A program made the translations under genes and the position numbers. From Owenia fusiformis (lineage: Eukaryota; Annelida; Polychaeta; Sabellida; Oweniidae), in assembly GCA_903813345.2 (NCBI GenBank), contig CAIIXF020000002.1, positions 32,568,109 through 32,632,108 of the forward strand: a stretch of 64,000 nt of DNA, given 5' to 3'. Shown piece by piece: positions 771 to 42,982 of this stretch. The notes below the pieces were generated by a model, which saw only the letters and a program-made list of their open reading frames with translations, was not told where the DNA came from and did no database searches. Every line of letters begins with the position of its first letter. Within the stretch, counting starts at the first letter, position 1.

Positions 771-1537
771 AAACTAGATAATGGCAACTCCGCGGAGTAG
801 CAAATCCCAACGAACAAAATATCAATTACCGAATTCCAATTAATTATACTCATTACTTTGGTTAAAATTGAAAAATTTAGATTTTAGAATTGCGAATTCC
901 TGCAAAGCAGCCATTTTCTGAGGTACAAATCTGAAAAATAATACCATAATTGTGATCTACTCCAAAATTCCTTCAATTTGAGTATAATATAGCCATACTT
1001 TGAAGGGATCGAAAAATTATTGCGAAATCCTACATTAGACGGCCATTTTGAATTTTACGAGGCTCGAATCAGAAAAAAGATACAATATTTGCAATCTACT
1101 CCTAATTGCCTTTCATTTGAGTATAATAAAGCTATACTTCAGAAAGATCTAAAAATTAGCGAAAATTTCTGTTTTCCTGAACCCCCATACACGGCCCCTG
1201 GGGGTCAGGATGAAAAACAAGGAATATATGTGAAAAAGATAGATGTTGCGAATATACTACCTATATTTCAAACAATAATATTAATTACTTTGGCTTAGAA
1301 TGAAAAATTTATGATTTTTGCGAAAATGTCCCATCATTTTTAAAGCGGCGGCGATCTTGAAAAAAATTATTCACCAATATACATCTTTCCACTAAATATG
1401 AAGAAAATCCGTCTACTAGTATTTGAGTTATCTTCCGGACGGACGGAAGGACGGACGGACTGACTGACGGACAGACTGACTGATGGACGGACGGAGGGCT
1501 TCACTATATCCCTACCGAACTTCGTTCGTTGGGATAA
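771..1537 (+). repeat. Dispersed repeat family A, copy 1
   Basis: This copy opens actagataatggcaactcc, then carries aatcccaacgaac, and closes ttcgttcgttgggataa, an imperfect subterminal inverted repeat. Inside it has a run of ggac-type tetramers (1437-1497) and blocks ending 'gccattttgaattttacga'. The same element recurs at 33460-34067 (shorter) and, diverged, at 19568-20125. No coding capacity is seen. It is probably a non-autonomous DNA element and sits in the pseudogene intron between exons d and e. Confidence 0.85.
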
Positions 1538-1670
1538 TAATTCATGAGCCTCACTGAGCCTCAGTAAAATATTTTTAGCATACAAGTTAGCAGCTTCTTA
1601 AGTTTTGTCAAGAAAACCTCTGTATTTACTTCAAATCTATTTCATAGTGTAACAAAAAACTAAAACCTAC

Positions 1671-1770
1671 CAGATTTTAGAAGGTACTTGACAAGCTCAA
1701 GGTGTCCTTCCTGTGCTGCCTCCATAAGCAGTCTCCCGAGTCTCCTCAGTCTGTGCATTGATGTCAGCCC
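1671..1770 (-). pseudogene. ANKHD1: ANKHD1-like exon d (internal deletion)
   Basis: It reads GADINAQTEETRETA, then jumps at about 1726-1731 to LMEAAQEGHLELVKYLLKSG in another frame. Compared with the family, about 30 codons between these blocks are missing and the frame is lost. The acceptor (cttaccag) and donor (gtaggt) are intact. The intron between this exon and exon c holds the 2.5-kb repeat-cored mobile element. Confidence 0.83.
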
Positions 1771-1852
1771 CTGGTAAGACAATGACAAACAAATTACTAA
1801 CAAGGCATTAACATGACAAAATGTCACCACCTAGTTGCTCACAATATTATGA

Positions 1853-5817: not shown

Positions 5818-6780
5818 CTGAAATTTCAGTGTATATTGTTTATTTTGTAGTTCCTATTATTCTATTAATGAAATTAGAGTTTCTACTGAAAAAAACTAAA
5901 GATGATACCAAGATGTTTCTGCAAGAAAATCTTACATAATTTTGAAATTGACACCTCTTTTTTTAAGGTTGAACTGTTCATTGCGCAGTCAGTTCGCGCA
6001 TCTTTAATTCCAAAAACATAAACTGATCTCAACATTTATTTCCTGAGAAGTTGCATATGTTTGTATTTTGAATCTTGAATAAGTTCTTCATTTGATGGAA
6101 TATCATAAATCATTTGGAACATAATATATTTGAAGTAATAAGGAACATATGTAGTGCTCCACGTACATGTTACTTACAATTTTGTCAACCCCTTTACTGC
6201 CTATAGATCTATTTTTGCCTTTAATGGTAAGCATAAAAATATGGATTGGATTGAGTGGATTTGGTTGGATTGGTTCAATGTAAAAGCCCCCCTCCCCAAA
6301 AAGTGTGTCATTAGCAAATTTACACAGGCAAGAGAGGACTGACAAACACATGGAAAAAGAAAGACCATATACTGTCATTAAACATGATATAATAGGACTT
6401 TTCATCTAAAGTAAAATCTGTTTAAGTGATTGGACTGACAAATAACATGCAAAATCAAAGACAATATACTGCCATTAAACACGTAGTATATATTATAGGA
6501 CCTTTTTATTTACAATAAAACCTGTAAATCCAAACACCATTAGGTCATGTAAAATAGATTAGCAGGTGTATGATGCGGCTTTACCACCAGAATTGCGTGA
6601 ACCATGACCTAATATTGACTCTCCCTAGAATTCCATTTTCGCAAAGTGCAGACAAGTTGGCCTTCAAGTGCAGAATAACAGAATCATTAATTTTGATCAA
6701 TCAGATATTTCTTCTAAGTACAATATATTCTGCAGTTAAAATGTTCATTGAGAAGTAAGAAATTGTGCATAATATATATA
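5818..6780. other. Intergenic or intronic sequence, no gene seen
   Basis: AT-rich sequence upstream of the last recognisable ankyrin exon. Around 6360-6560 two diverged half-copies of 'aggacctttttattta...aataaaacctgtaaatcc' suggest an old MITE remnant. No exon of the ankyrin gene could be found here. Confidence 0.5.
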
Positions 6781-7762
6781 GGGTGTCTCAAAAAAATGTA
6801 CCCAAAAGTATATCAACACCATAGACATTAACCAATCAATATTTTCAGACATTTTTTGCATGGTCTTGAAGATAAAAGATGAAATTTTTTTCCCCTATAC
6901 ACAGTTTTTAATTCAGTTTTGCCTTTTTGATACTTTAACCCGTTACCTTTTACAGTTTTACACCACATATTCAATGTAACCTCATATTTTGATGACAGTC
7001 TGCATCCTTACTACTACATTGTTCATCACATTTGATATATCTGGTGGAATGTTTTGATTTCTGTTTGGATGCTGGTCTTAAGTTGTTCTAGGTCTCTTAG
7101 CTTGGGTTTAGCATAAAAATGGTCCTTCAAATAGCCTCAGAAAAAAAAGTATGGGCCGTCAAATATGGTGAATAGGGAGGCCCTCACAATGTCTTATAGC
7201 CCCCATTATACAGAGAGGTCAGAGGTTCAAGAAACTGCATTGCTTGGGATTCTAGTGTAGCTTTTGTTTGTGTATCAATTTGAGACCACTGTCTTTTCAT
7301 TTGGATATGATTTGGTCTCCAGGCTAGCCTGCCTAACTCTGTAAGGTAACTCCTGAATCATTTGCCGATAATTGACCTGATTATCTGTGTTTGTTCTGTC
7401 ATCATCATCCTCAATCATCTTTCTCTGTGGCTATTTGAAGGAGTGTTTTAATGCTCATTCCAAGCAAAAAGACCGAGAACAACTTAAGGGCAACATCCAA
7501 AGAAAAATCCAAAACATTCCACCGAAATTATTATCAAATGTGATGAACAATGTAGCAGTAAGGATACAGGCTGTCATCGATATATGAGGTTACATCGATT
7601 ATGTGGTGTAAAAGGTAAAGGGTTAAAGCATCAAAAAGACAAGACTGAAATAAAAATGGTGTATTGGGGACAAAACTTTCATGTTTTGGCTACATGACCA
7701 TGCAAAAAAATGTCTGAAATTGTGCTCTTGATATACTTTTGGGTACATTTTTTGAGACACCC
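6781..7762. mobile_element. Mariner-type element rearranged into a foldback
   Basis: Flanked by TA on both sides, with terminal inverted repeats opening GGGTGTCTCAAAAAA. The right half (about 7412-7587, plus strand) encodes a decayed mariner transposase C-terminus: CGYLKECF, then LKGNIQRKIQNIPPKLL and MNNVAVRIQAVI. The left half carries the same 3' portion on the minus strand (NIPPDISNVMNNVVVRMQTV, with stops), so the two arms are inverted copies of one transposon end, about 350-370 bp each. About 260 bp between them continues the minus-strand copy towards the middle of the transposase. There is no intact catalytic domain. Confidence 0.85.
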
Positions 7763-7925
7763 TATATATATATATATATATATTTGAAAATTGATTATAA
7801 AAACAGAAAATATATATATATATATATATTCTTCTGTTATTTTCTGTTTTTATAATCAATTTTTATATATATATATATATATATATATGATTATAAAAAC
7901 AGAAAATAACAGAAGAAGTAATTCA
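7763..7925. repeat. (TA)n tracts alternating with an inverted 18-bp motif
   Basis: Three copies of gattataaaaacagaaa (forward, reverse, forward) are separated by long TA runs and adjoin the mariner right end. Together they can fold into nested cruciforms. Confidence 0.88.
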
Positions 7926-9689
7926 GTCACTACAGGTTTCACTTTTATTCTTCAGGTATGAAACATGATATATGGATTGCGATTGATATATATATCACTC
8001 ATGATTATATGTTGATTTAAAATTGAATTTGCAATGAAAATGCTTGAAGCTCTGGAACTTTTATTTCTCCATGATTGAGTCATTAACTCTTACCCTATTA
8101 TCCATATTTTAATTTCAATAAAAAAACGCTGTTAAATCTTGCGGAATTCCCACAGAAAACGAGGGGGAGTGAATGTTCATCGAGCCTGTTTTTTTGCCAA
8201 GGAAGCATTTTTTAGAGAGGAGGGGTGTCTAGTTGTAAGAGAGGTATAAAGCATTAGATACAACAAAGTAGGTGAAATGAGTGTTTAAAACTCTAATTCA
8301 TATGTTCATGCCTACCCCTTTATCATTATTATGTTGCTTTTATTCCCATAATAAAATGGAAAACATATAAACACAAATAACACAAATCATTCAACATTAC
8401 AACAATAACCAAATCAGATTAATTTATACATGTAACAAAGAACAAAATACAACAAAACAAATATAAATAAAAGTTTACAATAATTTGAATAAAGTACTTA
8501 CCTCATCTAAGGAGAGGTTTTGAAGTGTACTGGTTGTTTGATGTTGTTTTATTTTAAGATATGTTAAGATTTGAACTTTGTTTTGAACAACAGTACAGTT
8601 GTTTTTATGCATTTATTCATTCTGAATTGCCTTGATATTTTGTAGTTTGATGTTAATTTGTTCATTTCACTAAGTCACTTATTAAAATCTAGGCTCTTTC
8701 TCATTAACAGGAGACATGTTTTCTCAATCTGTATGAGCTATTTTATAATTGATGTTTATTTGGTTGTTTTATTTTTTATTTTTATGGCTATTTAGATGTT
8801 TAATTGATCAACTTACTCAGCCACTTTATTGGTCTGTTCAGTTGTTTTGTTTTCTGATATGTTCAGATCCGTAATTTGTTCTCTACAATAGTAGAATTGA
8901 TTCTGGTTTGTTATTCATTCAATCTGTTTCACCTTGACATTTTCCACTCTGATGTTCCATTGTTTGTCTAAGTCATGATCAGGGCTTTATTCTAATGATT
9001 TATCTGTTTGGTTTATGACCTGATTTTGGTGTTACAGTTCATAACATTTATTGCCTGTTCTGTTAGTGATTTCCTGTGGTATTGTTGTTCCTTCTGATTT
9101 AGTCTGTTGTAGGACTGATCATATGATAAAAATGTTCTGGTATTCTTTCAAAGATGTATATTTTCTGCTAAATGATAATCTTCTGTTTCATTTTTAAACT
9201 TACTCTCTTACTCTCATTTCTAATCTCACTTTTGCATTCCATTATTATCAACAAATACAATATTACCAATTGAAGCGACCAAAAGATCTACTAATATATC
9301 TTACCACAAAATAAATTCATATTATTTACACTATGGTCTCTTCCATTCATGATTTATTGTATTCTCTGGTATTGTTGTTGATTCTACAATAGTCTCTCAC
9401 AGATTTTCTATCTTTCCATGGCATCTACAGTTGGACATTTTCTTTTCTATTTTCTGCAGTAGAACACTTTCCCAAGTATGGAATTGTATATTTTGCAGTA
9501 GGATATTTTTTGTTGTATTTTAACAGAAGGACACCTTTTGTTGCATTTAAAAGAAGTGGGTTTACATTCACTTTCTTGTTAGATCAGTTGTTTTCTAGGT
9601 TAATAATAAGCTATGATCTGTTTCAATGTTGCAGTTCATATAATTTAATTCATTGCCACTTCTGTGATTTAATAATAATAAGGATAATA
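7926..9689. other. AT-rich stretch without genes
   Basis: Strand-biased T-rich sequence from about 8500 to 9660 with many ttctg/tgttt words. No exon, transposase or inverted ends are recognised. It lies downstream of the Helentron reading frame and may include the element's 3' region, but no boundary was found. Confidence 0.45.
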
Positions 9690-9775
9690 AGAACTACAGA
9701 GTACAGTAAGGACTACAGAGTACAGTAAGGACTACAGAGTACAGTAAGGACTACAGAGTACAGCAAGGACTACAA
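9690..9775. repeat. 19-bp tandem repeat, about four copies
   Basis: The unit ggactacagagtacagtaa repeats with period 19, 'actacagag' falling at 9693, 9712, 9731 and 9750. It lies about 125 bp beyond the Helentron stop codon and could belong to that element's 3' end. Confidence 0.9.
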
Positions 9776-9900: not shown

Positions 9901-12900
9901 TTACTTAACATTCCTAATAATTACTTTGATCATTTCATGATAGCTGTAATAGATTGGTAAAACACATACATCTACATTGCGTAATCCTCGACTAGCATAA
10001 ACATGATCAATACATGTTCCAAATTCAGTCGTTGGTACAGTTGGATCTGACAGTAATCTGTATCTTTGGCGTAGCAAGAAATCATGAATAGGGTGCTTCT
10101 CTGTATCAATCAAATTTTCATTTAAATCACCAACAATAAGAACTTTTTTATGCTTTTTGTGAACATAATGTAAAATGTTCTCCATTTCTAAAACAAATTT
10201 TGTTTTCACTATTTTTGGTGACTTATATAATGTTATCACAGCAATATCTTTAAAGATGGTAATTGCGTTGTCCAAAGGTGATATTATGTTGGATGTTTGC
10301 AAGTTTCCAAAACCATTTTTCTTATAAATGGCAATTCCACCTTTACGGGTTGAGTCAATTTCTGTTTTTCTATTCACTATATGTGGAGAATCGAATGTTT
10401 CAATCTCAAGAATATCACACACATTTTCATGTCTAAGCCATGTTTCTGTGAGACACATAACATCACATGAGGTCAAGTCAGTGTTACACTTTACATCTTC
10501 TATATGACCTATCAAACCCTGTGTATTATGATAAATAATGGCCAAGTCATTCTCTGTTGCCATTTCATAGTGAGGTAAATATTGAGATAAATCTAACTCT
10601 GGCATCTTTTCTAAAGCCTTTGCTGTGTTTTCGTCACAATATATTTTCTTCGGGTCATAATCAATTATATAAAGACCTTCAGCTGATGTTACCCTACTGA
10701 AAGCAACATATGCTTGACCACCTGTAAACAAGTTTGCGCATGATATGGCAAGTCTTTCACATGTCTTCCCCTGCAATTTATGTATAGTGCAGCCATATGA
10801 TAAAATCAGTGGTAGTTGACGTCTCATAAATTTGCCATTGACTTCATCATTATATGGTTCAATACGTATAGAATCAGGGTGAACTTTAGACTTATCTTTA
10901 TATCTGCTCTTTATACCTACTTTTGGATTATCAAATTTAACCCATACAGCCTTCGGCATATTGTCTGTATCATTTTCAAATTCAATAGCAGTTACAACAC
11001 CAAATGCACCATTAGCCAGTCCATCAGCAGTACATATATTTTTTATCAGAAGTACATTTGCACCAATGCAAATTTGTATTTCATGTGAAAGGGTATCATC
11101 CCGACGATTTGGTGGTTTGTCAGTTTTTTTCCATTCTTGGCCTTTCAATTTGGTGTAATCAATTGCTTTTATATTATATATTTTATTATTAGTTGACTTT
11201 GCATAAGACAATATTCTCTTCCGATTATACTCATTCACTTGGACATGCTTAGAATATATCCTCATGACATCTTCTGGAATTGGTTTTTTCATTATTTCTC
11301 TAATGAATTCATCGTCTTCGGTCGATATTTTTTCACCTTTTTTAAGAATTCTAATTCTGTTTAAAAATTCGGCATATTTGAGATCATCTTTCTGTCTCAT
11401 TATTTCAGTCAGCTCTATTTTTTTGAATTTTCCCCAAGGATTATAATCTGGCTCATCAGATGTCAGTAAACTTTTCTGCATAACTGGGGGCAATTGATAA
11501 AAATCTCCAAATGCTAATACTGAAGTATTACCAAAATCTGGATGGTTGCCAGGTTTAATTTGCTTAAGTCTTCCTCGTACTGTGTTGAAAAGTCTGACAC
11601 TAACCATAGAAATCTCATCAACTATCAGATTCTCTAGAGATTTTAGTCTCATTTTTAAGGGAGCTATATCTTTTTCTTCAAGTGGCTTATATTTTGAAGA
11701 CATAAATCTTGAAGTGATTCTAAATGCCGAATGTAATGTATTGCCATTAATTTGGAAGGCGCTTGTTCCTGTTGGACTTGTTAACAGTACACTCAAGTCA
11801 TCTGGATTCTTTAAAAGGTTTCGCAATAAATGAGTGGAAATATAATGGATGCATTTAATCAAATGTGTTTTACCTGTTCCTGCTTTTCCACAAATATGAA
11901 GAAATAAAGGTTCAACTTGTTTATGCCACGATAACTCTAAGCAGCGTTTCCTAATTAAATAAAACACTTGTTTTTGCTTCGCATTCATGGTTCTCATTAA
12001 CTTCATGGCTTCCTCTGTAGGTATTGTATCTGTCTGTAATTCTACAAGACAATTTACATTTCCTTTAACTTTTGTTTTAAGGTCAATATCAGGCATATCA
12101 TTTTCATCAATTTCATCACAATTTGGTTTAACATATTCGGAAATACACTCCTGTCTTTCCAGTTCTTGCTCTGGTGCTAACTGAGCCCATGCATTCTCAT
12201 ATGTATCATCTTCATTTAATTGTTCTTGCGCAGCATCTAAATCATCGCCAGTAACATCATAAATACATTTATATTTTGACACAATTTCAGACACTTGCAA
12301 ACATTTTTCTCCATGTTTTATTTTTCCACACTTGAAATAGCCTTCAAATGTTTCATATTTAGCAGGTCGCAATTCTTGATCACTTCTGTGTGGTATGAAG
12401 AGTTGGAGCATACTATGATAGTATTCATCAGGATTGGTGTCCTTCGAGAATTTTGGATATCTTATAATAGCTGGTGGACTTTTTGATCTCTTCTGAATAT
12501 ATCCTAAGCCATTTTTCAGTTGTATCTTTTTTGATGTTTCTGTTTGATTTTCAAATACTTCATCATCGTAATTATATGTTACAACTCTGTACATTGATGC
12601 AAACTCTGCCAAACATAATTCATCAAATTCTAAATTACATGGCCTTCCAAAATATCTTTCAATGATACTTGTTGCCCATATTTTATCTTGTTCATTCTCT
12701 TTGTGTCTGCGGATCTGTGAAATTGGTAATGACATCTTTATTGGGTTGTTACCCACTGGCAGAAATACTGTTTGTCTTGAACATTCTTTAAGATGAAGAT
12801 TGGTGGCTCTGTACACGGCTTCTTGAGCACTAACTTCTCTATGTTGCATATATTTGTATCCGATCATTTTCATGAGTTTTGAGGCAGATGCATTTTTCTC

Positions 12901-15900
12901 TTTAGCTTCTTGTTCAGCATCTATTAGATTTTGACTCATATCACGTTCTTGTTTTGAAATGTATGATACAATATACACTACACAAGAAAATACATCAAGA
13001 ACATATTGTATATCCATGTTAGCTTCCCATGCTTTCAGAAGGTCTGGATTGTAGTTATTTATCCACATTTCCTGAACATTTCTCCTCAAGAATATAGTTT
13101 TCTTTCTTTTACTAGTCAAAACTCTAATTACATTTTCATATTTCTCCATTGTTAATCCTGGATATGCTTTCTCAAAAATTTCAGTTAATGTCATTTTTGC
13201 ATAATCTTCTGACAGAAAAAACTTCCAAAGAGACTGAATAATATCTTCAGCTACTTTTATTGGTATACTCTCTATTGGTTCATCAGAAATGTTGTCATCA
13301 ACAATAAAGGTTCTGTCAGATGGAAGTTTGGGGAAGTGAAATCTACAACTTGCTTTTTTATTTTTCTTACAACTTTTTGAATGGTTTTTGCTGTGTGTTT
13401 GAACTTCATTGACTATTCTGTTCAAATCTGGATCAATTGTCTCATCTGGCAGTTCACAAGAGATATATCTATCAATGAATTCCTCAACATCTGAGTCTTT
13501 TGATTTGCCATAAATGGGAGCATCTTCAATCCAAATTAAACAGTGTATATGGGGTGATCCTCTCATTTGAAACTCAACACGGTAAAACATATCTTTTATT
13601 CTACCAATCGGTTCTGCAGGTGATTTCAATACATCATTCATGAACCTTCTCCATCTGTTATCAAACATTCTTGCAACAGTAACTGGATTATCTCTGATGA
13701 ATTCACATCGTTCTGTTTTTGTTATTTCGTCTGGCAAACGTGGGTCATTATTTTGTTTCAGGATTGTTTCAATAACCTCATTCCATTTCAAATCTGCTGA
13801 TGAAAATGAACAAAACCATGTTGGTGGTCCAAGTTGCCGTATCATTGCAAATAAATCTTTTTGTACATGTTGCCAGTATGGTGGTGTGCCACGGATTGGT
13901 TGCAGATAATGATGACCAACATTTTTCCGGCAAAGACTTTCACTTTTATCCTTACTAATAATATCATCAGCTGTTATTACATCACCACTCGTTGACTTTT
14001 CTGTTATTTTCCTGAGGCTGATACTAACTTTAGAGAGTATATTCTGAAGTTCAGTCAAATATTGGGCATAAAATATATATTGAGTATTTTTAGCAAACCT
14101 TAAGTCTGCAGATAATAACCTATTGCCAAAATATTTGAATGCTGACAATTTCTTTTCTCTTTTTTCAGCATTTGTATTTTTTCCATTTGGAAATAAAGTT
14201 GGGAATGAAAGTGCTTCATTGTTCTTTTCTTGGAGAATACGTATTGGCTTGTTGTTTTCTCCTGGTGCTATGCAGTATATCTTGTCAAGATGTGTGTCAA
14301 TAATATTTTGAGCAATATCATCAGGTTGCATACAAGTATCAAATACTATATTCTGTATATCACTACTAGTGTCTTTATCCAGGATTTCTGTATTGGTTTC
14401 TTGATCTTGATCACAGTCTATCTCAGTAGATTTTAAGTCATGTTTACTTCCATATTTTTTTTTGTCTTCTTCACTTAAAATTTCAGGAGGTATTGAATTC
14501 ACAAAATCATCCAATATATCAATATCTTTGTATTGCTCATTGTTTTGTTTCAGGTACTTGAGTGCTTCTTTTACTTTAGAAACATTCACTGACTTATATA
14601 AGTAATGACCCTTATATTCAAGTTTGCGCTTGAGTTTCACTGTCAAAAGTTGTTCATCACTAATTGGCCTTGGTAAGACTTTAATGGTTTCTTCGGCATT
14701 ACTTGATACAGATATAACAGGACCATTCATACCAGATTGTCCTCCTCTTGGCAATTGTACTATTTTCATAAAAGGTAAACGTAACGACACTAAATGTTGT
14801 TCAAGGACATTCAAATCTTTCAGTTCTGGTGGAATAGATGGTACAGACAAATTGTTGCTAAAAGACATCAGAGGAATTTTACCTTTTTTAAAGTGAACAT
14901 GGCAGTTCTGACATATCCATAATCTGCTCTTAGGAGAATTGCAAAGTGTACAACTTTGGTTGCATATTTCTTTCTTGTGTAAATATATTTTTGAAACACT
15001 CTTTTGTTCATCCTGTTGAGATAATTTTGAATAAGTATTTTCTTTGTAGGCAAGCACTTGATTTTTAAAAAGCAATCTGTGACAAACCACACAAATATAA
15101 TTTAGTCCATCGTGAATTGTTTGTTTAAAGTCATAAATTACTTTTTCAATATTTTCTCTTTGAGTATTTCTGATAATGTGTTTTTGTTTACCTTGGTTGA
15201 TCTTACGTTTCTTGAAGGCTTCATCAGTGTTGTACTTTTGTTGGCTTTCTAGTCTCACTTTTTGTTGAAAATCTAGATCAGATTCATACTTGCCCTTGCT
15301 TTGTTGTCTCACTTTCTGTTGAAAATCTAGATCAGATTCATACTTGCCCTTGCTTTGTTGTCTCACTTTCTGTTGAAAATCTAGATCAGATTCATACTTG
15401 TCCTTGCTTTGTTGTCTCACTTTCTGTTGAAAATCTAGATCAGATTCATATTTTCTTTTGCTCTGTTTTATCTTTCTCTGCTTGAAAAGCTCATCAGTTT
15501 CATATCTTTCTTTGATTTGTTGCTTTCTTTGGTCAACCTTATCATGTCTGAAGAGCTCATCAGTAGAGTATCTGTGTCTTTCATAAATCTTACTCTTGTA
15601 TTTCCTCTGATCTGTCTTTGACATCTTTCTCAACTTTGCCTTGTCACTTTCTGAGAAAATATCATCATTTTTACAATCATCATTAATCGAGCTACTACAA
15701 CAGGTCTCATCTTTGGTACATTTTGTTGAATCATGTCTTGTTTTATCACAATTTCCAGCCGTTACCTGACCAAATGTTTCTTTTAATTTACATAAATGAA
15801 CATATGATTGTTTGATTCGCAGACTGGTTGAACTAACAGGATTCTGTTTGCTATCAGATACAGGTTGAGTGTCAGTATCTTCTGTGAAGTTTAATCTCCT

Positions 15901-18900
15901 TTTGCAAGATTTTCTTTCATTTGACTTTGAGGGCATGAGAGATGGTTCACTACTTGTCTTTTTGACAGTCAAGTTTAGTGCTTCATTTTTGGCAGGGTCA
16001 TTTCTACATTTTATTTTGCTAGATATCGTTTGCCTCTTGATTTTAGGCTCAAGTACTGGGTATTGTATCTGATTAACTCTTGCACATTCTTCAAATGTTA
16101 TACCATCGACAGAAAACCCATGCTTGACATTGGTTCTGTTTATCAAACTATCAGTTAATGACTCTGCAGTGTTCCACAAAAACATTGATATTTTTTCCAA
16201 TGAATTTGACATATGAACAATTGCATTTCCAAAAACATCAATTCGTCCTTGATCATTCCTACTGTGAGGATCAAATGAGTAATACATGTCTTTGCTCTTC
16301 ATAACACAAGTTGTTGTATTCAGGAATGTAACGAGGCATGAGTTGTAATCTGTGAGCCCTTTTTCAATAGCTTCATGTAGAGTTAATCCATCATCGTCTT
16401 CTTCAGTATAATTCCAGTACTCTAAGTAGCCCTGTTGTTGTCTTGATTTGTATGTATACTTTTTGTTGTTAAAGCTTAAGATTTTTGGAATATCAAATAT
16501 TTCCAAATAACCTGTTGGAGTTGGATTTTGAGATATGATACTATTGTATAATATGTTGCCTCGGACTAAAACATCAGTAATGAATTCTGCATTAATTTCA
16601 CGGTGACTTTCATTTTGAAGCATCAGTAAAAATGACAAAGAGTTAGCATAACATTGTTTTCCTTGACCTATGCCTTCAAACATTAGATGATTTTGAGACA
16701 TATTTCCTTCTATAACTTGATCAAATATCTGTATTGCTGATGCATTGTTCTTTGCAGGATTTGTATTTGTATTTGCCGCTATCACATCTGTTACCACGTC
16801 ATAATGACATTGGCTAGAATGATCTAGGTACATACATCTGTTAACAAATGTTTTTCCAAATACTGTCCATCTATTTGTGTTTTCAAAAGTAAGTATCTGG
16901 GTTTGGAATAAATGGCAAGCTGCGGCAATTTCAATATCAGTTCCCCATACAGATGATCTATTCATATTTTGGGATTTTATATGATTTTCCAATTCTGTTG
17001 CGGTTATTCCTCTTGTTTTACAAATGTATTTCTTACAGCTTTGGTCATTTCTATGAGACACTATACTCTGTCTAATAGCAGTGTGGTCATTTTCATTGTT
17101 TGTTATACAATATGCAATTGCTCTAAAAAGACAGTTTCCATCACCTCTGATATGTTTTAAGGATTCATATTTTGGCTTCATAAAGGCAATTTCAACATTG
17201 TCATATACAGGATCATTGCTTTTTGGCGTATACTTGAGATGATGGATGTTGCATAAATGAACTTTCTCTTGGTTTTGCAAAGGGTTAAAATTCCCAATAG
17301 GCTCACTGTAGGTTTCTTTCAAAACAGTTACATCATCAGGACTTTCCTTTGATTTATCCTTAGAATTATCTTTTGGGTTGTAACCTCCAGTTTGGGAAAC
17401 TTTGTATTTTGTTCCAGTTTGTAAATCTTTCGAAGACACATTTTCATTTAACAGTTTGTCATCATTGTCAGCTTCTAAGATTTCAGTCTTTTTCACTTCA
17501 TATTTATGGTTCATGGAAGACAGTATTTCATTGTTTTTGCTATGACTATGAATCGTTACTGGTGGAACACGTAAACATCCTTCAGCAAAAATATCTTGCA
17601 TTTGTTCTACAATTTCTACAAAGTATGGATTTTCACTGTCTGGCACATTTTTAGTTTCTGGTTTGTTTCTAGTTGTATCTGATTTGTAACTAAGATATTT
17701 GGATCTTTTCAATTCTTTCCTGTTTGAACAGTGTTCAATATTCAGCTTGAACAGTGTTTCAGTGTTATCAATGTTTAAGATTTTGAGATCATTATTTTCA
17801 ATTGGTGGTACTCTTACAGTGTTGTCAGACAAAAACTGTTCTAGATCATGGTGTGGCAATACATGTTTCTCTGGTTGTGAAGTTCTGAAAGTACTATCTG
17901 GGACATGCTTTTGTTGTTTTGAAGTTGAGTTGCTTTTCAATCGTCCAAGTTTACGCCTCGATAGTTTCTGTGTTTTTATAAGAATAGGCTGTAATGTTTC
18001 ATTGTTTTTTAAATGTCGTTCCATTTTCTTTCTTCTTGCTTTCATTTTGATAACTTCAGATCTTTCTTGTCTCCTTATTTTGTTTCTTAAGTACTTTTCT
18101 GATTTCAACAGAGATCTAAGAATATCATTGGTATCAGTAAGAAGTGCGTTCACATCATGGATAATTTTGAGAGATTTTCCAAGAGTATCAATGCAGTTTG
18201 CTATTAAAATATCTTTTGGTTGTGTGACAGTTCCAACCTCTGCTGACACATTGGCAAATTTGGTAAGTTTTCTGAGTTTCTTCTTCTCAGATTTCTTTAT
18301 GGTATTCTGTATTAACAGTGTGGCCAACTCAGATATTAATGAATCTTCCATATCTTCTGCTAACACCTTGTGATGGTTTGTATTGTTCTCAGTAATATTA
18401 GAAGTTGTACGCGATATTGTATCAATGTTTTTATACATATATTCAGTTGAACATGAGAATGCGACTTCCGAAAGTATGGTCTTATTGAAGCACAATGGTA
18501 CTGGTATTTCTTGCTTTCCATATGGTATTTTAGGTAAATTAGGCATTTCAGTTTGTATTTCAGTTTGTACTTCAGCTTGTACTTTAGGCACAGTAAGCAC
18601 TTCAGTTTGTATTTCAGGTACAGTAAGCATTTCAGTTTCTATTTCTGGTACAGTAAGTGCTACAGTTTCTATTTCAGGATCGGTAAGCCCTTCAGTTTCT
18701 ATTTCAGGTACAGTAAGCTCTACAGTTTCTATTCTAGGTACAGTAAGCACTTCAGTTTCTATTATAGGTACAGTAAGCACTTCAGTTTCTATTCTAGGTA
18801 CAGTAAGCACTTCAGTTATTCTGGGTACAGTAAGCACTACTACAGGTTGGGAATGCATTTGGTCTCCCTCCAGCCGCGATGCAAATGCATCACCCCCACC

Positions 18901-18963
18901 GCGACCTTCGCAGGAATCATACCCACCAACCGTTCGCTTCTTCCTCCTTCGATCAGGTGTGGC
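9901..18963 (-). CDS. Helentron Rep-helicase-endonuclease polyprotein, exon 2
   Basis: This exon encodes 3,020 of 3,043 residues; numbering below is for the joined protein. Order: decapeptide repeats (about 65-165); OTU protease, GDGNC with Cys634 and HYDVV with His743; a second cysteine-protease-like domain, KQCYAN with Cys794 and DPH with Asp921 and His923, resembling peptidase C76; 18-residue repeats (about 1191-1262); a CxxC-rich segment; HUH Rep with HIH (His1828, His1830) and YIVSYISK (Tyr2020, Tyr2024); PIF1-type helicase with GKAGTGKT (from 2382) and VDEIS (Asp2472); and an EEP endonuclease with TETW (Glu2863) and GDLN (Asp2969, Asn2971). The expected final SDH is SYH (Tyr3031). The obvious Met is at 18858, but the frame is open 35 codons further to a splice acceptor (tttttttacag, ending 18964) and joins exon 1 in phase 0. 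Rep nicks and joins single strands and the helicase unwinds; the protease roles are unproven. Confidence 0.93.
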   Translation of the reverse strand, partial: ATPDRRRKKRTVGGYDSCEGRGGGDAFASRLEGDQMHSQPVVVLTVPRITEVLTVPRIETEVLTVPIIETEVLTVPRIETVELTVPEIETEGLTDPEIETVALTVPEIETEMLTVPEIQTEVLTVPKVQAEVQTEIQTEMPNLPKIPYGKQEIPVPLCFNKTILSEVAFSCSTEYMYKNIDTISRTTSNITENNTNHHKVLAEDMEDSLISELATLLIQNTIKKSEKKKLRKLTKFANVSAEVGTVTQPKDILIANCIDTLGKSLKIIHDVNALLTDTNDILRSLLKSEKYLRNKIRRQERSEVIKMKARRKKMERHLKNNETLQPILIKTQKLSRRKLGRLKSNSTSKQQKHVPDSTFRTSQPEKHVLPHHDLEQFLSDNTVRVPPIENNDLKILNIDNTETLFKLNIEHCSNRKELKRSKYLSYKSDTTRNKPETKNVPDSENPYFVEIVEQMQDIFAEGCLRVPPVTIHSHSKNNEILSSMNHKYEVKKTEILEADNDDKLLNENVSSKDLQTGTKYKVSQTGGYNPKDNSKDKSKESPDDVTVLKETYSEPIGNFNPLQNQEKVHLCNIHHLKYTPKSNDPVYDNVEIAFMKPKYESLKHIRGDGNCLFRAIAYCITNNENDHTAIRQSIVSHRNDQSCKKYICKTRGITATELENHIKSQNMNRSSVWGTDIEIAAACHLFQTQILTFENTNRWTVFGKTFVNRCMYLDHSSQCHYDVVTDVIAANTNTNPAKNNASAIQIFDQVIEGNMSQNHLMFEGIGQGKQCYANSLSFLLMLQNESHREINAEFITDVLVRGNILYNSIISQNPTPTGYLEIFDIPKILSFNNKKYTYKSRQQQGYLEYWNYTEEDDDGLTLHEAIEKGLTDYNSCLVTFLNTTTCVMKSKDMYYSFDPHSRNDQGRIDVFGNAIVHMSNSLEKISMFLWNTAESLTDSLINRTNVKHGFSVDGITFEECARVNQIQYPVLEPKIKRQTISSKIKCRNDPAKNEALNLTVKKTSSEPSLMPSKSNERKSCKRRLNFTEDTDTQPVSDSKQNPVSSTSLRIKQSYVHLCKLKETFGQVTAGNCDKTRHDSTKCTKDETCCSSSINDDCKNDDIFSESDKAKLRKMSKTDQRKYKSKIYERHRYSTDELFRHDKVDQRKQQIKERYETDELFKQRKIKQSKRKYESDLDFQQKVRQQSKDKYESDLDFQQKVRQQSKGKYESDLDFQQKVRQQSKGKYESDLDFQQKVRLESQQKYNTDEAFKKRKINQGKQKHIIRNTQRENIEKVIYDFKQTIHDGLNYICVVCHRLLFKNQVLAYKENTYSKLSQQDEQKSVSKIYLHKKEICNQSCTLCNSPKSRLWICQNCHVHFKKGKIPLMSFSNNLSVPSIPPELKDLNVLEQHLVSLRLPFMKIVQLPRGGQSGMNGPVISVSSNAEETIKVLPRPISDEQLLTVKLKRKLEYKGHYLYKSVNVSKVKEALKYLKQNNEQYKDIDILDDFVNSIPPEILSEEDKKKYGSKHDLKSTEIDCDQDQETNTEILDKDTSSDIQNIVFDTCMQPDDIAQNIIDTHLDKIYCIAPGENNKPIRILQEKNNEALSFPTLFPNGKNTNAEKREKKLSAFKYFGNRLLSADLRFAKNTQYIFYAQYLTELQNILSKVSISLRKITEKSTSGDVITADDIISKDKSESLCRKNVGHHYLQPIRGTPPYWQHVQKDLFAMIRQLGPPTWFCSFSSADLKWNEVIETILKQNNDPRLPDEITKTERCEFIRDNPVTVARMFDNRWRRFMNDVLKSPAEPIGRIKDMFYRVEFQMRGSPHIHCLIWIEDAPIYGKSKDSDVEEFIDRYISCELPDETIDPDLNRIVNEVQTHSKNHSKSCKKNKKASCRFHFPKLPSDRTFIVDDNISDEPIESIPIKVAEDIIQSLWKFFLSEDYAKMTLTEIFEKAYPGLTMEKYENVIRVLTSKRKKTIFLRRNVQEMWINNYNPDLLKAWEANMDIQYVLDVFSCVVYIVSYISKQERDMSQNLIDAEQEAKEKNASASKLMKMIGYKYMQHREVSAQEAVYRATNLHLKECSRQTVFLPVGNNPIKMSLPISQIRRHKENEQDKIWATSIIERYFGRPCNLEFDELCLAEFASMYRVVTYNYDDEVFENQTETSKKIQLKNGLGYIQKRSKSPPAIIRYPKFSKDTNPDEYYHSMLQLFIPHRSDQELRPAKYETFEGYFKCGKIKHGEKCLQVSEIVSKYKCIYDVTGDDLDAAQEQLNEDDTYENAWAQLAPEQELERQECISEYVKPNCDEIDENDMPDIDLKTKVKGNVNCLVELQTDTIPTEEAMKLMRTMNAKQKQVFYLIRKRCLELSWHKQVEPLFLHICGKAGTGKTHLIKCIHYISTHLLRNLLKNPDDLSVLLTSPTGTSAFQINGNTLHSAFRITSRFMSSKYKPLEEKDIAPLKMRLKSLENLIVDEISMVSVRLFNTVRGRLKQIKPGNHPDFGNTSVLAFGDFYQLPPVMQKSLLTSDEPDYNPWGKFKKIELTEIMRQKDDLKYAEFLNRIRILKKGEKISTEDDEFIREIMKKPIPEDVMRIYSKHVQVNEYNRKRILSYAKSTNNKIYNIKAIDYTKLKGQEWKKTDKPPNRRDDTLSHEIQICIGANVLLIKNICTADGLANGAFGVVTAIEFENDTDNMPKAVWVKFDNPKVGIKSRYKDKSKVHPDSIRIEPYNDEVNGKFMRRQLPLILSYGCTIHKLQGKTCERLAISCANLFTGGQAYVAFSRVTSAEGLYIIDYDPKKIYCDENTAKALEKMPELDLSQYLPHYEMATENDLAIIYHNTQGLIGHIEDVKCNTDLTSCDVMCLTETWLRHENVCDILEIETFDSPHIVNRKTEIDSTRKGGIAIYKKNGFGNLQTSNIISPLDNAITIFKDIAVITLYKSPKIVKTKFVLEMENILHYVHKKHKKVLIVGDLNENLIDTEKHPIHDFLLRQRYRLLSDPTVPTTEFGTCIDHVYASRGLRNVDVCVLPIYYSYHEMIKVIIRNVK
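15245..15460 (-). repeat. 54-bp coding minisatellite (18-residue repeat) in the Helentron protein
   Basis: Four nearly identical units read KYESDLDFQQKVRQQSK. Similar but diverged units (YETDELFKQRKIKQSK, YNTDEAFKKRKINQGK) flank them, so the run is an expansion inside an older degenerate repeat. It is highly charged and probably an extended or helical linker between the protease and Rep halves. Confidence 0.93.
18589..18840 (-). repeat. 30-bp coding minisatellite (decapeptide LTVPRIETEV-type)
   Basis: About eight units of a 30-bp repeat encode variants of LTVPRIETEV at the N-terminus of exon 2. The unit is frame-preserving. The opposite strand is also open here, which is a side effect of the repeat. 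Confidence 0.93.
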
Positions 18964-21033
18964 CTGTAAAAAAATTAATACTTACTGTACTCTTAGTATT
19001 TTTTGTATGCCATTATATTTTGCGCTTTTTAAGAGCATTATAAATTTGTAAAATAAAGAAGCCATGAAATTCTAATGATCTAAATTCACAAAAAAATACA
19101 TTCTCCAATCACAGGGCTTCAAAATCCAGAATATATTCTTTCTTTTTACCCCCTGCGATAAGCAGTTAGCATTTCCCCTATTAAGAACTCGCAATCTGAT
19201 TGGTTGTTGCAACACTGCAACAGAAATCACTCAGAGTTTGCAGTATTTTACTGCTTGGCAATAAAGGTATTTTTGAAAGCATGAGCCTGGTCTGAGGCAA
19301 AACCAACAAATTTTTGTGAGGGCACTAGTATTGCCGATATTAATGTTCAATAAGATAAGATAAACATGCAAATTTACAAAAAAAACATGCGACGTTTTGA
19401 AATGTCTCAAATCACCAAATATGATTTAAAAATTTGAAAAAAGTGAAAGTTACAGAAAACTAATAGAAACTGAAAATTTTCAATAACACAAAAAAGCAAA
19501 ATATAAAACCACGGAATATTGCAAAAAGTATAGTATCTGGTATTCAGATGAATGAATGACTAATATAAACTAGACAATAGCAATGCCAAAGCGTAGCAAA
19601 TCCCATCGAACAGCAATGGCTGGAAATATTTACAAAAATTGTCATTAGACAGTGTGTCATGCTTATAGTATTCACATACCAATTATGAACAAAATTGCTC
19701 CACTACTTTTTGAGTTACAGCAAAAATAGTAAAATAATGAGTAAAGGCCGCCATTTGTCAAGGTGGTCGCCATGTGCTTCTTTAATATCAACATTTCTAG
19801 CTTTATTAATGTCCTATATCATTTTTTACATTTAAAACATATTGCTATTACAGTTTTACACATTGCACCTAAATTACTGTAAAATTGACACTAAATGGAT
19901 GCCATTTTTAAATGAGTGACCATTTTAAAAATCAGCTTTCTAACAGAACTTCTACCCTTATAGGGCATATATGTACAAAATATTAACAAAATCAGGCCAA
20001 TGGTATTCGAGTTATTGCCCTGACGGACACACAGACGTATATACGTACGGACGTACATACGGACAAACGGACAGATGGATGGAGGCATTCTCTATATCCC
20101 TCCGAATTTCATTCGATGGGATAATGAATACATACCTATGCAAATCACTTTCACAGGGTTAGGATGCTACATTATAGCTAGTTTGATGTATCCAGTACCT
20201 GAGATTGATTGACTAGTTCACTCAAACACACTAGATGTCATATTCATACTCACATACTACAACACTGCAACTGGAAGCTTAGTGATAATAAATGAATAAT
20301 AAAAAGAGCACAGGTAGTAACTTATCCAATGCCTTTGACTATTCAGAAAATCCCCAAGACTGAGTGTTTCATTACATATTTTCACTACATTCATACACAC
20401 TGTCCTTAAAAACATACAGTGGCACACTTTCGTCATCGAAGAATCAATAAGCACAATTGTCTAGCTCATGACCTGTAATTGCAAAAACAGTTGTCTATCT
20501 TGATTTATCCTGAAATGTTTACAGCTAAGGAAATTCAGCATCTTTAAATGACATAAGTTATGCACAGACATTTTCACTCAATTGTTCCCAATGACTTGGG
20601 ACAAGAAACTCTGCCACTTAAAGCCCAGACATTGACTAAAATGAGTGAAAAATATATAAAGCCCACACCCAATTAAACTTCTAGGTTATAGCACCAATCA
20701 CCTTACCTGATGTATCCAGAGCTCTATACTACTTGGCTAGATTCCATTACCCAGGATGCCTAAAGGGTTCACTCAGTTACATACTCACAAATGCTCGACT
20801 GTCCTTAAGGAATCACAACTTGAGTTGTCAAATTTTTATAACTGAAACCCCAGACAGTGATCATTCATTGACTATAAACATGTTTCTCAAACTCACAACA
20901 TCTAGGTTACAGCATACCTACCCATTAGCTCTAGATGATGAAATATAACAATAGTCATATAACACTGCTCTCCATCTAGTTTACAAGGTTACAACATAGA
21001 TGACCATTTTTAGAACTGTTGTTAATAGTTTAC
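18964..21033 (-). other. Intron of the Helentron gene
   Basis: 2,070 bp with GT (21033) and AG (18964). It contains repeat family A copy 3 (19568-20125) and diffuse repeats around 20160-20260 and 20690-20760 sharing 'acctga' and 'gatgtatccag' words. No exon is seen inside. Confidence 0.72.
19568..20125 (+). repeat. Dispersed repeat family A, copy 3 (diverged), in the Helentron intron
   Basis: It opens actagacaatagcaatgcc and aatcccatcgaac and closes attcgatgggataa. The inner part shares 'cttatagtattcacatacc' and 'gctccactactttttgagtt' with the array at 34.6-34.9 kb. It has a short gacggac/ggacgta stretch near its end, as copy 1 does. Confidence 0.75.
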
Positions 21034-21102
21034 CTTTTTTAGGTCTAACTTGGACCTCTTGACATATTCTCTTTTCCTCAATCCTTTTGGTTTTCTCGCC
21101 AT
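21034..21102 (-). CDS. Helentron polyprotein, exon 1 (start codon and basic N-terminus)
   Basis: The ATG at 21102-21100 opens 23 codons, MARKPKGLRKREYVKRSKLD then LKK, ending at a strong donor (AAG then gtaaac, 21033). It joins in phase 0 to the exon 2 acceptor at 18963, continuing ATPDRRRKKRTV. The joined N-terminus is strongly basic, as expected for a nuclear or DNA-binding lead sequence. Evidence is splice consensus plus matched phase. Start at Met 18858 without this exon remains possible. Confidence 0.78.
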
Positions 21103-21818
21103 GGCTGTGTAAATAAAAAATAAAAAATAAATAATCAAGACGATAAATATACATTTTCTATGATATATGCCAGATTTAAAAAACTTCAGAAATTAACTTT
21201 TTGTATCATGTATGACAAAGAGCTGGAGTGTTACGCTATTTTTCATTTTATATGCAATTTAAAAATTTCAACAGTTAAATATAAGCTATTTTTATTTCAT
21301 CTAAAATCAAATGTATCAATTGAGGAAATTTAAGTATGAAATCTAGCCAAAATTTTAAATTCATCTTATTGTTACATTGTCATACTTAATTAGTCAAAAC
21401 ATGATTGAGTATATGGTTTGTATTTATGAATGAGTATTCAATAAAATCATGTTTGAAGGACACCAGAACTATGCTTAAAATTCAAAATTTAAATACTAAA
21501 TATTTCGTTTGAGATTCTGTTAAAAATTCAATATATATATATGGTGCGCTTAATAAACTTTCAACTTCACTATTGTATTTATGGTATGGGATATATTTAT
21601 CATAAGTGTATTTCTATTAGGCATATATATCATAGAATTTGTATTTTTAATTCATTGAATAAAATGTTATGTAAAATTATAGCACAGTAGATAGTGTAAC
21701 CAATTTCAACTGTTTATCCTTTGGGTATTGAGTGTGAGTGTATCAAAATATGACAAATTATGACAATATATCATTACGAAAGAAAGTTTGATAACATAGT
21801 CACTTTGCTTGTATTTGC
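21103..21818. other. Upstream flank of the Helentron gene, no gene seen
   Basis: AT-rich sequence that would include the Helentron promoter and 5' terminus. No TATA box, inverted end or boundary could be assigned with confidence. Confidence 0.4.
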
Positions 21819-21973
21819 AAATGCAACTATCAGCTGTCGGATACTGGATTAGCTTAATGTTTTATGGTCAACCCATTTAAATATGAATATTACATGCCAC
21901 TATTTTGTTCATATTAAAATGAATTGGTCATAAAATAGTAGGTTAATCCAGTAGCCAACAGCAAGTTGCATTC
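21819..21973. repeat. 155-bp palindromic MITE-like hairpin
   Basis: The left arm (21819-21888: aatgcaact, tactggatta, ttttatg) is mirrored by the right arm (21907-21973) with a 20-bp centre. Arms are about 66 bp with scattered mismatches. Confidence 0.85.
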
Positions 21974-22300
21974 ACTAATATAAACTCAGCCAATTAAGCA
22001 ATATGTTAACTTTAAAGTGAACAATTTATTACAATGTCTAATACAAAATTGATGAGACCTTAGAAAAATAAAATGTACATTTAATACTATAATAAAATAA
22101 TCCTTAATTGAAGAAATTAGGTATAATTTTAAAAATATACCACTATGGACAAAATATTGTAAGAGGGTATAGCCAAACCAATACAGTGACAAGGATATTA
22201 CAGATGGAAGAATCATAGAACACATGAAAGGCAAAAGAGGAACTAGCAAGAACTGGTCTTAAGTAGAAGGCATTAGTTGAAAGAGTAGTAGAAGGAATAT

Positions 22301-22462
22301 ATAAGCACAAATGCCAAATGGGAGCTGTGACTAAAAACTATAAAGAAACCCAACAAGAAAAGCAAACTCTAAGTGTAAATCTGTCATAAGAAAAGTAGAC
22401 CCTTTATATCCCAAAACCATGATCTAACGTGAAAACAAACAATGTCTAACATCCCCCCCCCC
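22301..22462. repeat. Dispersed repeat B, copy 1, ending in poly-C
   Basis: Shares order and words with 49671-49827: 'acccaacaagaaaa', 'tatcccaaa', 'gtgaaaacaaacaatgtcta', then a run of C. No function is recognised. Downstream to 23040 is unassigned sequence with two short minus-strand frames I do not recognise. Confidence 0.7.
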
Positions 22463-23094
22463 CCTCCAATCGAGAAGCAGTATCACAATCCAGGACCAGA
22501 ACAACAAGGGACATTTCATTCATACTGAAGTCATTACAATACATGTTGAAGAAAAATTGAAAAAATTGATAGCCAATACTCATAACATCAAAACAACATC
22601 ATTAAATGAACAATGAAGTAACAAGTACACACTGGCATGCTGAAAATTCCAATTAAAAAACTTGTTCACATGAAGGCATGACCAACTCCATGAAAAGAAA
22701 ACGACACATCCTCAGTAATTTGATCTTGTTAAGGCAAAGGGCACTTGGAAGAAACCCAGGAGAAGTGTACTGACCACCACAAGAAGTTGGTTCACAATTC
22801 AAGGTTGTTTGGTTGATTTGCATTAAAACTTCTATTGCCAAATCACTGCACTATAATGATACTCATCAGACCAGATATTCTCCTGTCTTAAGATAGTACA
22901 AAGCATAACAAGGACAAAGGTCACAGTGTCATGAGGATGCAAAAAAGATCTGATTGAAGAAGTTGCCAAAGGCTGTATTGTCCATTTATTGTCCAATTGA
23001 AATTGGATGAAAGAGATTCCCTTCATTCACCCCACACTACACAACATAGCTTAAGGTTGAGCGAGTATTAATCGCTATTAAGGAATTCTAATTG

Positions 23095-23315
23095 CAAAAA
23101 AACTGATTAGTAGATGCACTTACCTTGTACTTAATTTTAATGGATATATAACATCATATGCAGTTATAGGTTGTTATAAAGGAAGTGTGTGGTAACAGCA
23201 GCTCATCACGTAAGCTAATAATAACTGATAAGTAGATTCACTCACCTTGTAATTCATTTCAATAGATATACAACAACCAATTATAGGTGTTATAAAAGGA
23301 AGTTGAATTTCTTCC
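23095..23315. repeat. Direct duplication, ~125-bp period
   Basis: Two diverged units share 'aactgattagtagat.cactcaccttgta', 'tttaatagatata' and 'ataggtgttataaaaggaag'. Non-coding. Confidence 0.7.
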
Positions 23316-25394
23316 ACTTTGGAAGATTCATATTATCATTCACAATGGAAACATACATAATCTTAGAACACATTTGTACTTTAAAAAGAAGTTGTGTTAG
23401 TTCTCAATAAGATTTTTAGACTGAGTTTGATTTATAATACATTCCTTTGGTTAACATGGCAGAATGTTCACAGTTCAAATTTGATTCAAAGATTTAAATG
23501 CTTTCTTAATTTATATTTGTAGAATTTTTTTGGTGACCAAAAATATTAGAAATAAAATAGTGAGATTCTGCATTTTAGTCTAAAGATTCAGTGAGAACCC
23601 TATAGTAAATAGGTTTATGGACTTAAAACTATCTGATTACCTGAATTACCAATGTTGACAGAACATGTACTCCCCATAGCAGCAAACCTGAAAATACTTC
23701 TATTTCTTCCAGTTGTAAGTAAATGCTCACTTCCTGTCCATTCTTATTTTGCTGATTGTTTTTTCCATCTTTTTCATTTAGCCTCAGATTGGTTTGTTAT
23801 ATCCATTCTTCTTTGAAAGTATTCTTTTGTCATTGAATGTATCTTTATGTTTGTGTGTTTTCATCAGCCCTCTTGTTAATGCCACATTTTCCTTAATTTG
23901 TTATCCATTCTCAGGTCAAAGTCTCCAGTACATAAATAATAAATATATCCTCTTAAAACCTAACCACTTCGAGTAAACTTGCTTGGACACATCTCATTTA
24001 GCAATTGCATCTTGGTTAAACAAAGCAAGAATCACAAGAGTCTGGTACTACTGATGCCTTGTATTGACTGCTTGACTTTCCCAGCAATGTCTGCATTCAT
24101 AGAATAAAGCATACAAAAGATAAATAAACTGATTGAATAATATAATGTGGCAGATACAGAAATACAGTCACTGCAGGTTAAATTATTGGTAATGCAATAC
24201 CCCAAAGAGAAACAATTCTAATGCCAAAGCTTAAGATCCAAGGGTGGAGCAGGTGGTTTCAGAGAAGCTTGCAAGAACCACAGCAAGAATTATGGCTTCT
24301 GGTTACCTCATCACAAAGTCATATACAGCAGTCCAGCGTTTCCTTCTCTTAAATCTTGGAGATATCACCTAAAGTAGTTTAAAGCAATTTGGTTTTCATC
24401 CTGGAGTTTGGTAAATCAACCTACCTACAATTTGAAATTAACAGCATTTAAGAAAAATGTTCTAAATTCTAAATGGGCATGGCTTTTAAATAATTTCAGG
24501 CCTCAGACATTGAAATGTCCTTATTTCTTAATTGAAACAGATTGATTTCCATTTATCTACAATGTTCCATCTATTCTTGCAGGTTCTGTCTTTCTGAAAC
24601 CAGGCATTAACATGCAAACTGTCAGCACCTATTTGTTGCAAATGCTCAACCCCAACTGCTATTACACATTCCACTAAAACAAAAAAGTAAAATATAGAAT
24701 AAAAGTTGACCAAAAATAGAAAAAAAAACATGCAGACTGACACTGACACTAAATTACTGAACAAGCTACTGTACACCCTGTACACCCAGTTTTAATTTCG
24801 CAAATTTTGAGAAATACCAATATCGCGGCCATTAAATTTCGCGGATTTCAAAGGTTTAAATTCCATTATTCTCTGAATCCTCAAGCTCTGTAAACTAATT
24901 TACCTTATCTACAGTAATTACACCTACCCAATGTCATATTTGGATAAGATTTACAGTTTCTAGATCTTAGTCAACGGCATTGTTGCACCTCAGCCTTTAA
25001 TTGGCAAAATTTGCGATGATTTATTTTCACGATTTTCACACAATCGCGAAAAGCGCGAAACTAAATCGCACACGAAAAATACCGGGCGTACAGTATGCTC
25101 TTGAGGTTTAAATAATTTCTGAGTCAATTTTCTGATTGACCAGCACCTTTTCATATGGACCGAAACTTTTGAAGTACTCCGGGTTATGTTGAACAGCTTA
25201 ATTTGATACCAACCACCTGACTTTTAAGGTCAAAGGGTTGTTTTACCAGTCTCAGTTTTGCCCTAAATGTCTACACTGTTTGCCAGAGATGAATGATGTG
25301 TGCTAGTGTATCACTTTGATTGGTTCCTCCTGATCCATCTGGTATTTGTGGTTCAGCCAAAAATTGGATTCCTCTCTATGCTGATACTGTATTT
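23316..25394. other. No confirmed gene; one candidate minus-strand exon
   Basis: Mostly unremarkable AT-rich sequence. On the minus strand, an acceptor-like ttttgttttag near 24676 is followed by an open frame reading VECVIAVGVEHLQQIGAD and ending KWKSICFN plus stop near 24528. I do not recognise the peptide and find no partner exon. 24970-25090 is rich in cgcgaaa words typical of invertebrate MITEs. Confidence 0.3.
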
Positions 25395-42644: not shown

Positions 42645-42982
42645 TTTCCGTGTTTGCAGTTGTGTATTTTGCTCTTATAATGTTTTATAGTCTATAGCTA
42701 ACCCCTGCACAAATATACACTTTGGAACTAGGCCTACATACTTATAGACCATTGATATAAATCGTGTGCTGTACACGGCGATCTAGGTTATTCACAGTGC
42801 AAATAATAGGCCTACACTATATACTCTATATATATCATTGCACTTCACTTCGCCGGGTCAAAATGTGTGATTACAGGTACAGAGTGTAAATGATGAAAAC
42901 GAGGCTTTAATAATGTTACCCAAAACATTGATAACAATTTAGATATTTTATAAAGATGTCACTGTTATAACATTACCAGCTG

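Follow-up and report, generated by a model that had tools for sequence, protein, structure and literature searches.

Helentrons that combine an OTU-like cysteine protease with Rep, helicase and an apurinic/apyrimidinic (AP)-type endonuclease have been described (PMC4067079; PMC6431247), and the accessible parts of those two papers mention no second deubiquitinase, unlike the element reported here. VTD deubiquitinase domains occur in Helitrons of vertebrates, insects, cnidarians and molluscs, 121 with an OTU too, for example zebrafish DrT2, and Erven et al. have proposed that they keep proteins required for transposition from being degraded by the proteasome (PMC9741609). Here, a 64,000-nucleotide stretch of the Owenia fusiformis genome (contig CAIIXF020000002.1; the window, to which all positions refer) was found to carry an intact-looking Helentron polyprotein frame with two unrelated predicted deubiquitinase domains in tandem, an OTU followed by a VTD. 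That these domains protect the transposition protein or complex from host ubiquitin control, and that they have been exchanged as a cassette between Helentron backbones, is the reading to which we give a probability of about 0.6.

The window element shares with DrT2 and the VTD-carrying Helentrons of PMC9741609 a RepHel-endonuclease backbone, one VTD predicted to be active together with an OTU, and the Asp-x-His motif. Novelty of the OTU and VTD pair as such was rejected, since it has already been published (PMC9741609). Zebrafish DrT1 differs in having two VTDs and, in the published description, no OTU (PMC9741609). The architecture of the window element is already known; the apparent swapping of the enzyme pair among relatives in the same genome is less expected. 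Unlike DrT2 (compared by its description only) and the Helentrons of Erven et al., eight relatives in this genome have two OTUs flanking the VTD. A limited literature search found neither exchange of a deubiquitinase cassette nor an OTU-VTD-OTU arrangement, a scope too narrow to establish absence in print.

A single open frame on the minus strand (9901-18981) holds every motif that the sequence-only reading of this DNA had listed: GDGNC at frame residue 613, HYDVV at 726, KQCYAN at 775 and FDPHSRN at 903, followed by HIH at 1811, YIVSYISK at 2003, GKAGTGKT at 2365, VDEIS at 2454, TETW at 2844-2845 and GDLN at 2951. Pfam matches along the protein were, in order, OTU (611-708), Herpes_teg_N (771-910), DUF6570 (1365-1490), Helitron_like_N (1620-1815), PIF1 (2331-2548) and Exo_endo_phos (2831-3010); these positions are one lower than frame residues because the query started one codon later. 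An HUH Rep and PIF1-type helicase with a C-terminal AP-type endonuclease fused to RepHel bear out the earlier call of a Helentron-type coding region, and the OTU, Rep-Hel and endonuclease set agrees with what is reported of Helentrons (PMC4067079; PMC6431247). The residue numbers of the earlier reading are frame numbers plus 17, an offset explained by a joined protein with exon 1 at 21034-21102 (23 codons) and exon 2 from 18963. This exon 1 is supported by alignment: copies on contigs C5 and C505 (85-86% identity over 170 bases) are gap-free from the ATG to the GT donor and have indels in the flanks, while the more divergent copy on C515 aligns with small gaps. Judged by its coding sequence, the element is an intact-looking rolling-circle transposon.

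The OTU domain matched Pfam with E 1.4e-7 in the whole protein (32.5 bits; curated cut-off 23.3). Among 15 PDB sequences, a 17-row profile (A2) matched OTUD3 (4BOU, 2.9e-8) and OTUD5 (3PFY, 2.2e-6), and the Asp-Gly-x-Cys and His-x-Asp columns were invariant in all 17 rows. The OTU assignment made from the letters alone, with Cys634 and His743 in joined numbering, is upheld by these matches, and the domain is predicted to be a deubiquitinase. The window element gave no further OTU match in Pfam, the sole method used for this purpose.

The second domain, which had been likened to peptidase C76-type deubiquitinases, matched Herpes_teg_N (peptidase C76) with E 1.9e-7 in the whole protein and 31.3 bits, above the curated cut-off of 25. 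Searched against PDB as a single sequence, it matched 8ADD (2.2e-5) and 8ADB (0.0011), and as a 15-row profile (A1) 8ADD (3.5e-8) and 8ADB (1e-4). The profile also gave weak matches to two herpesvirus large tegument chains (6PPB, 0.072; 9NO1, 0.21); the herpesvirus large tegument deubiquitinase belongs to the same Pfam family, and unlike the window protein it is viral, capsid-attached and described without Rep and helicase (PMC9741609 in part). The closest solved relative by sequence is 8ADD, which is DrT1-VTD2 of a zebrafish Helitron (Erven et al. 2022, PMC9741609). Cys777 and Asp904-Pro-His906 (794, 921 and 923 in joined numbering) align with its Gln-Cys and Asp-x-His, the latter being the invariable VTD motif (PMC9741609). 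The profile search of the 794-923 region that the sequence-only reading had proposed thus returned matches, and a C76-type deubiquitinase is predicted. Chance similarity was rejected by the Pfam match above cut-off and the 8ADD profile match; both OTU and VTD also recur in other copies of the genome. A structure model of the VTD from the single sequence, made with no alignment, had a mean predicted local distance difference test (pLDDT) score of 30.6, so the Cys/His geometry and a papain-like fold rest on homology to 8ADD. Pattern searches of viral and prokaryote sequence collections gave 20 and 29 matches, none confirmed as relatives.

A profile search of the genome assembly (498 Mb, 525 contigs) returned at least 37 Herpes_teg_N, 58 OTU and 58 Helitron_like_N places. 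Thirty-eight VTD places were read: the 37 Herpes_teg_N places, window included, and an element on C12 (L037/L045), classed as OTU+VTD by its motifs and by 40-43% identity to other VTDs. All but one (L001, the same as L060, VTD-only) were of the OTU+VTD type, so that the pair looked for in other Helentrons was met at 37 places of this genome as well as in print (PMC9741609). The VTD motifs GxQC(F/Y)AN and FDPH were present at 37/37 of these places, and the OTU Cys and His-x-Asp stood in one frame at 35/37; L019 runs off the contig end and the frame of L031 is broken. A second OTU follows the VTD at 8/37.

These eight loci (L019-L025 and L027, on C1, C6, C73, C158, C328, C337, C340 and C500) have frames with three predicted deubiquitinase domains bearing catalytic motifs; in L019 the contig end truncates the first OTU. 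A tandem array of about 15 copies of a 154-bp unit (L061:628-2962) follows the frame of one OTU-VTD-OTU element; satellite-like arrays have been reported in oyster Helentron elements (PMC7492417). L060 (742-6360, C6) is a Rep-Hel frame that begins with a VTD. In L058 (720-8000, C10), a VTD-like match of 18.1 bits (cut-off 25) with GKQC and FDSHS was found at residues 738-875, between DUF6570 and Rep rather than before DUF6570. The Rep score of L058 is shared by C6:5179499 and C11:29204960.

The ratio of non-synonymous to synonymous substitution rates (dN/dS) was estimated by the Nei-Gojobori method with a codon bootstrap for five hand-picked pairs from 13 frames, that of the window and 12 more, nine of the latter being incomplete at one end (10,000-base extracts). 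Values were 0.07-0.18 for OTU, 0.14-0.17 for VTD, 0.09-0.12 for Rep and 0.10-0.17 for helicase; the same pairs gave 0.17-0.30 for the endonuclease, 0.23-0.43 for the N-terminal part and 0.24-0.39 for the linker. Between-group comparisons of OTU and VTD were left out because dS was often saturated or undefined. The OTU and VTD values are thus close to those of Rep and helicase and lower than those of the linker. By this measure, purifying selection acts on both the OTU and the VTD.

Trees were built for residues 560-840 (OTU/VTD) and 1600-2790 (Rep-Hel), with 12 rows each (L045 was left out as a long branch), and protein trees with 13 rows. In the OTU/VTD tree the window grouped with L046-L048, L042 and L038/L049, and L039-L041 with the OTU-VTD-OTU elements. 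In the Rep-Hel tree the window grouped with L046, L048 and L039-L041, and L047 with L042. Approximately unbiased (AU) tests rejected the Rep-Hel groupings on the OTU/VTD data (p 7.2e-4, 5.6e-5 and 4.1e-5) and the OTU/VTD groupings on the Rep-Hel data (p 3.1e-80, 0.0039 and 0.0039, the last two being one split). Pairwise identities over residues 150-858 and 1365-3020, respectively, were 99.9% and 96.0% for window and L046, 98.7% and 81.4% for window and L047, 80.5% and 99.1% for L042 and L047, and 60.6% and 89.6% for window and L040. On these alignments, the OTU/VTD part and the Rep-Hel part differ in history among the copies of this genome.

A junction was mapped in five mosaic loci (L026, L031, L032, L033 and L035) at sites separating the window from an L042-like copy. 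All five were window-like to residue 858.7 (with one exception each or a third base, unlike either reference) and switched at 862.7, a point inside the VTD, between Cys and Asp-x-His. Beyond about residue 930 they were mostly L042-like, the match to L042 falling again in places farther into the linker; L026 consists of N beyond about residue 1000. With loci matched by position, the 3' part of the frame in four mosaics was 78% identical to the window, as in L042, and 94-95% in window-type copies. C13, an unplaced contig, carries four of the five, and C432 the fifth; local duplication could account for their number, and misassembly is possible too. From the discordant trees and these mosaics we infer that the deubiquitinase cassette has been exchanged between Helentron backbones.

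Countering host ubiquitin tagging, one of two roles suggested in the sequence-only reading, is the best reading of the pair. The tested VTDs of zebrafish Helitrons cut both K48- and K63-linked di-ubiquitin (PMC9741609), and by analogy the VTD would probably act on chains of these types, with the OTU adding another specificity. The substrates of the two enzymes may be the transposition protein or the proteins that assemble at the replicating element; freed of ubiquitin, these would escape degradation or shutdown by the host. The cassette, unlike the backbone, would be exposed to the host, and its exchange would be favoured for that reason.

Several observations weigh against this combined reading. 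In several pairs the bootstrap range of dN/dS for OTU or VTD is not separate from that for the linker or the N-terminal part, and some frames occur in more than one pair. For the second OTU of the OTU-VTD-OTU group, dN/dS was 0.37, 0.45 and 0.59 (one upper bound 1.28) in a segment that includes linker, and similarly wide segments of that group gave 0.22 for the first OTU and 0.18-0.31 for the VTD. The groups compared by AU test were chosen after the protein trees were known. Between residues of about 863 and 930 the mosaics are a mixture, 82-91% identical to both references and close to neither, and a junction as unclean as this probably reflects multiple events or a parent not among the sequences seen. 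With many copies on unplaced contigs and similarity that passes the frame, the number and arrangement of the copies may reflect segmental duplication, gene conversion or misassembly. The C12 element has an OTU and gave neither a Herpes_teg_N nor an Exo_endo_phos match in Pfam at E 0.05; L058 and L060 gave no Pfam match to OTU or Exo_endo_phos, and L059, one of three other Rep-Hel frames examined, none to OTU or VTD. VTD-only and deubiquitinase-free Rep-Hel frames in the genome imply that the pair is dispensable for some such elements. According to Erven et al. (PMC9741609), no transposon OTU had been assayed at the time of their study.

The same evidence can be read with other targets. The deubiquitinases are fused to replication machinery and their dN/dS lies near that of Rep and helicase, as would fit action at the rolling-circle intermediate on host replication or repair factors, ubiquitinated PCNA or repair signals being examples, and not on the transposase; substrates cannot be revealed by sequence, and we consider this unlikely.

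Self-processing, the other role suggested in the sequence-only reading, is rated lower still, as improbable. Here the OTU or VTD would cut the polyprotein, for instance after the di-glycine of (S/T/C)Q(T/S/K)GG-Y, 84 residues before the OTU Cys, and so free the variable N-terminal part. This QxGGY motif (residues 530-534) stands in the main frame at 35/38 places; in L031 it lies ahead of the frame break, L019 is truncated by the contig end and L001 is of the VTD-only type. Across six divergent representatives the motif has four invariant residues out of five, within an indel-rich region, and its sequence is similar to the QTGG with which mature SUMO ends. Cleavage of polyproteins at di-glycine sites is a frequent second activity of viral deubiquitinases (PMC9741609). 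Against a cut at this motif, 4 of the 447 five-residue windows in residues 150-600 reach at least four invariants (starts 390, 470, 471 and 530), and three of them cover RVPP motifs; with nearby islands equally conserved, QxGGY may be an ordinary short motif. Pfam found no ubiquitin-like domain before it. Other di-glycines kept in at least 8 of the 13 frames were set aside as processing sites, as they lie inside the VTD, DUF6570, helicase and endonuclease and look structural. QxGGY is at most a candidate processing site. The RVPP motifs themselves, at residues 390-394 and 471-474, are conserved amid a variable N-terminal part and are perhaps docking motifs.

That OTU and VTD are passengers or inactive binding modules is very improbable: inactive VTDs do occur in insect genes (PMC9741609), but the catalytic motifs are retained across copies and dN/dS is 0.07-0.18 in the five pairs.

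Within the reading of a host-directed, exchanged cassette, a stronger form is offered tentatively, as possible and doubtful: the N-terminal deubiquitinase cassette would be a swappable anti-host module. A near-identical cassette sits in backbones 4% and 19% apart, a junction can fall within a catalytic domain with the triad still complete, and deubiquitinases vary in number (OTU-VTD, OTU-VTD-OTU, VTD alone, none); this would be so because the cassette, not the backbone, conflicts with host ubiquitin control.

Coordinates of the element are collected in Table 1.

Table 1. Features of the Helentron element in the window (residues are those of the open frame).
Feature	Positions	Strand	Basis or remark
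Helentron polyprotein open frame, 3026 residues	9901..18981	-	exon 2 start probably 18963
Putative exon 1, 23 codons	21034..21102	-	ATG to GGTAAAC; GT donor 21033-21032
30-bp coding tandem repeat, LTVPEIETE-like units	18569..18838	-	repeat detection and reading of frame
QTGGY motif, residues 530-534, in the linker N-terminal to OTU; candidate processing site or else a short linear motif	17380..17394	-	
OTU domain, residues 605-735 (bounds by hand); Cys617, His726, Asp728	16777..17169	-	Pfam, profile, alignment
VTD / peptidase C76, residues 755-950 (bounds by hand); Cys777, Asp904, His906	16132..16719	-	Pfam, 8ADD
Point where five related loci cease to be window-like, residues 859-863	16393..16407	-	
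54-bp coding tandem repeat, YESDLDFQQKVRQQSK-like units, in linker	15244..15504	-	repeat detection and reading of frame
DUF6570, residues 1366-1491	14509..14886	-	Pfam 3.7e-23
Rep (Helitron_like_N; HIH 1811, YIVSYISK 2003)	12952..14121	-	Pfam 7.6e-32
PIF1-like helicase, to residue 2790 (bound by hand)	10612..11988	-	Pfam 4.5e-22
Endonuclease/exonuclease/phosphatase domain, residues 2800-3020 (bounds by hand)	9922..10584	-	3.2e-12

Element ends (subterminal inverted repeats, 3' stem loop, TT insertion) were not found when five 3' flanks were compared with the window and three OTU-VTD-OTU flanks with each other; similarity passes the frame on both sides. Upstream of the frame, from 19,000 to about 36,140 (with isolated pieces as far as about 37,320), parts recur at 91-100% identity on contigs such as C13, C104, C415 and C499. 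Downstream, short pieces only were shared, at 67-90% and reaching about 6,024 (6024-9700). Dispersed repeats lie within the shared flanking sequence, which may represent either one giant element or a duplication of the region. Stretches 100% identical to small contigs (19000-24500 with C482, 37980-39875 with C385) are possibly alternate haplotypes.

Elsewhere in the window, a 136-bp tandem array occupies 1893-4012; among the matches listed, stretches of this region recur on C1 to C12, mostly with 86-95% identity. By eye, two minus-strand frames at 41290-42674 resemble exons of a quinone-oxidoreductase-type host gene, and a 498-residue minus-strand frame at 46039-47535 has reverse-transcriptase-like motifs.

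The O. fusiformis genome offers many open-frame copies of OTU+VTD Helentrons, evidence of selection keeping both deubiquitinases, and natural mosaics. These copies and mosaics make it testable why rolling-circle transposons carry deubiquitinases.

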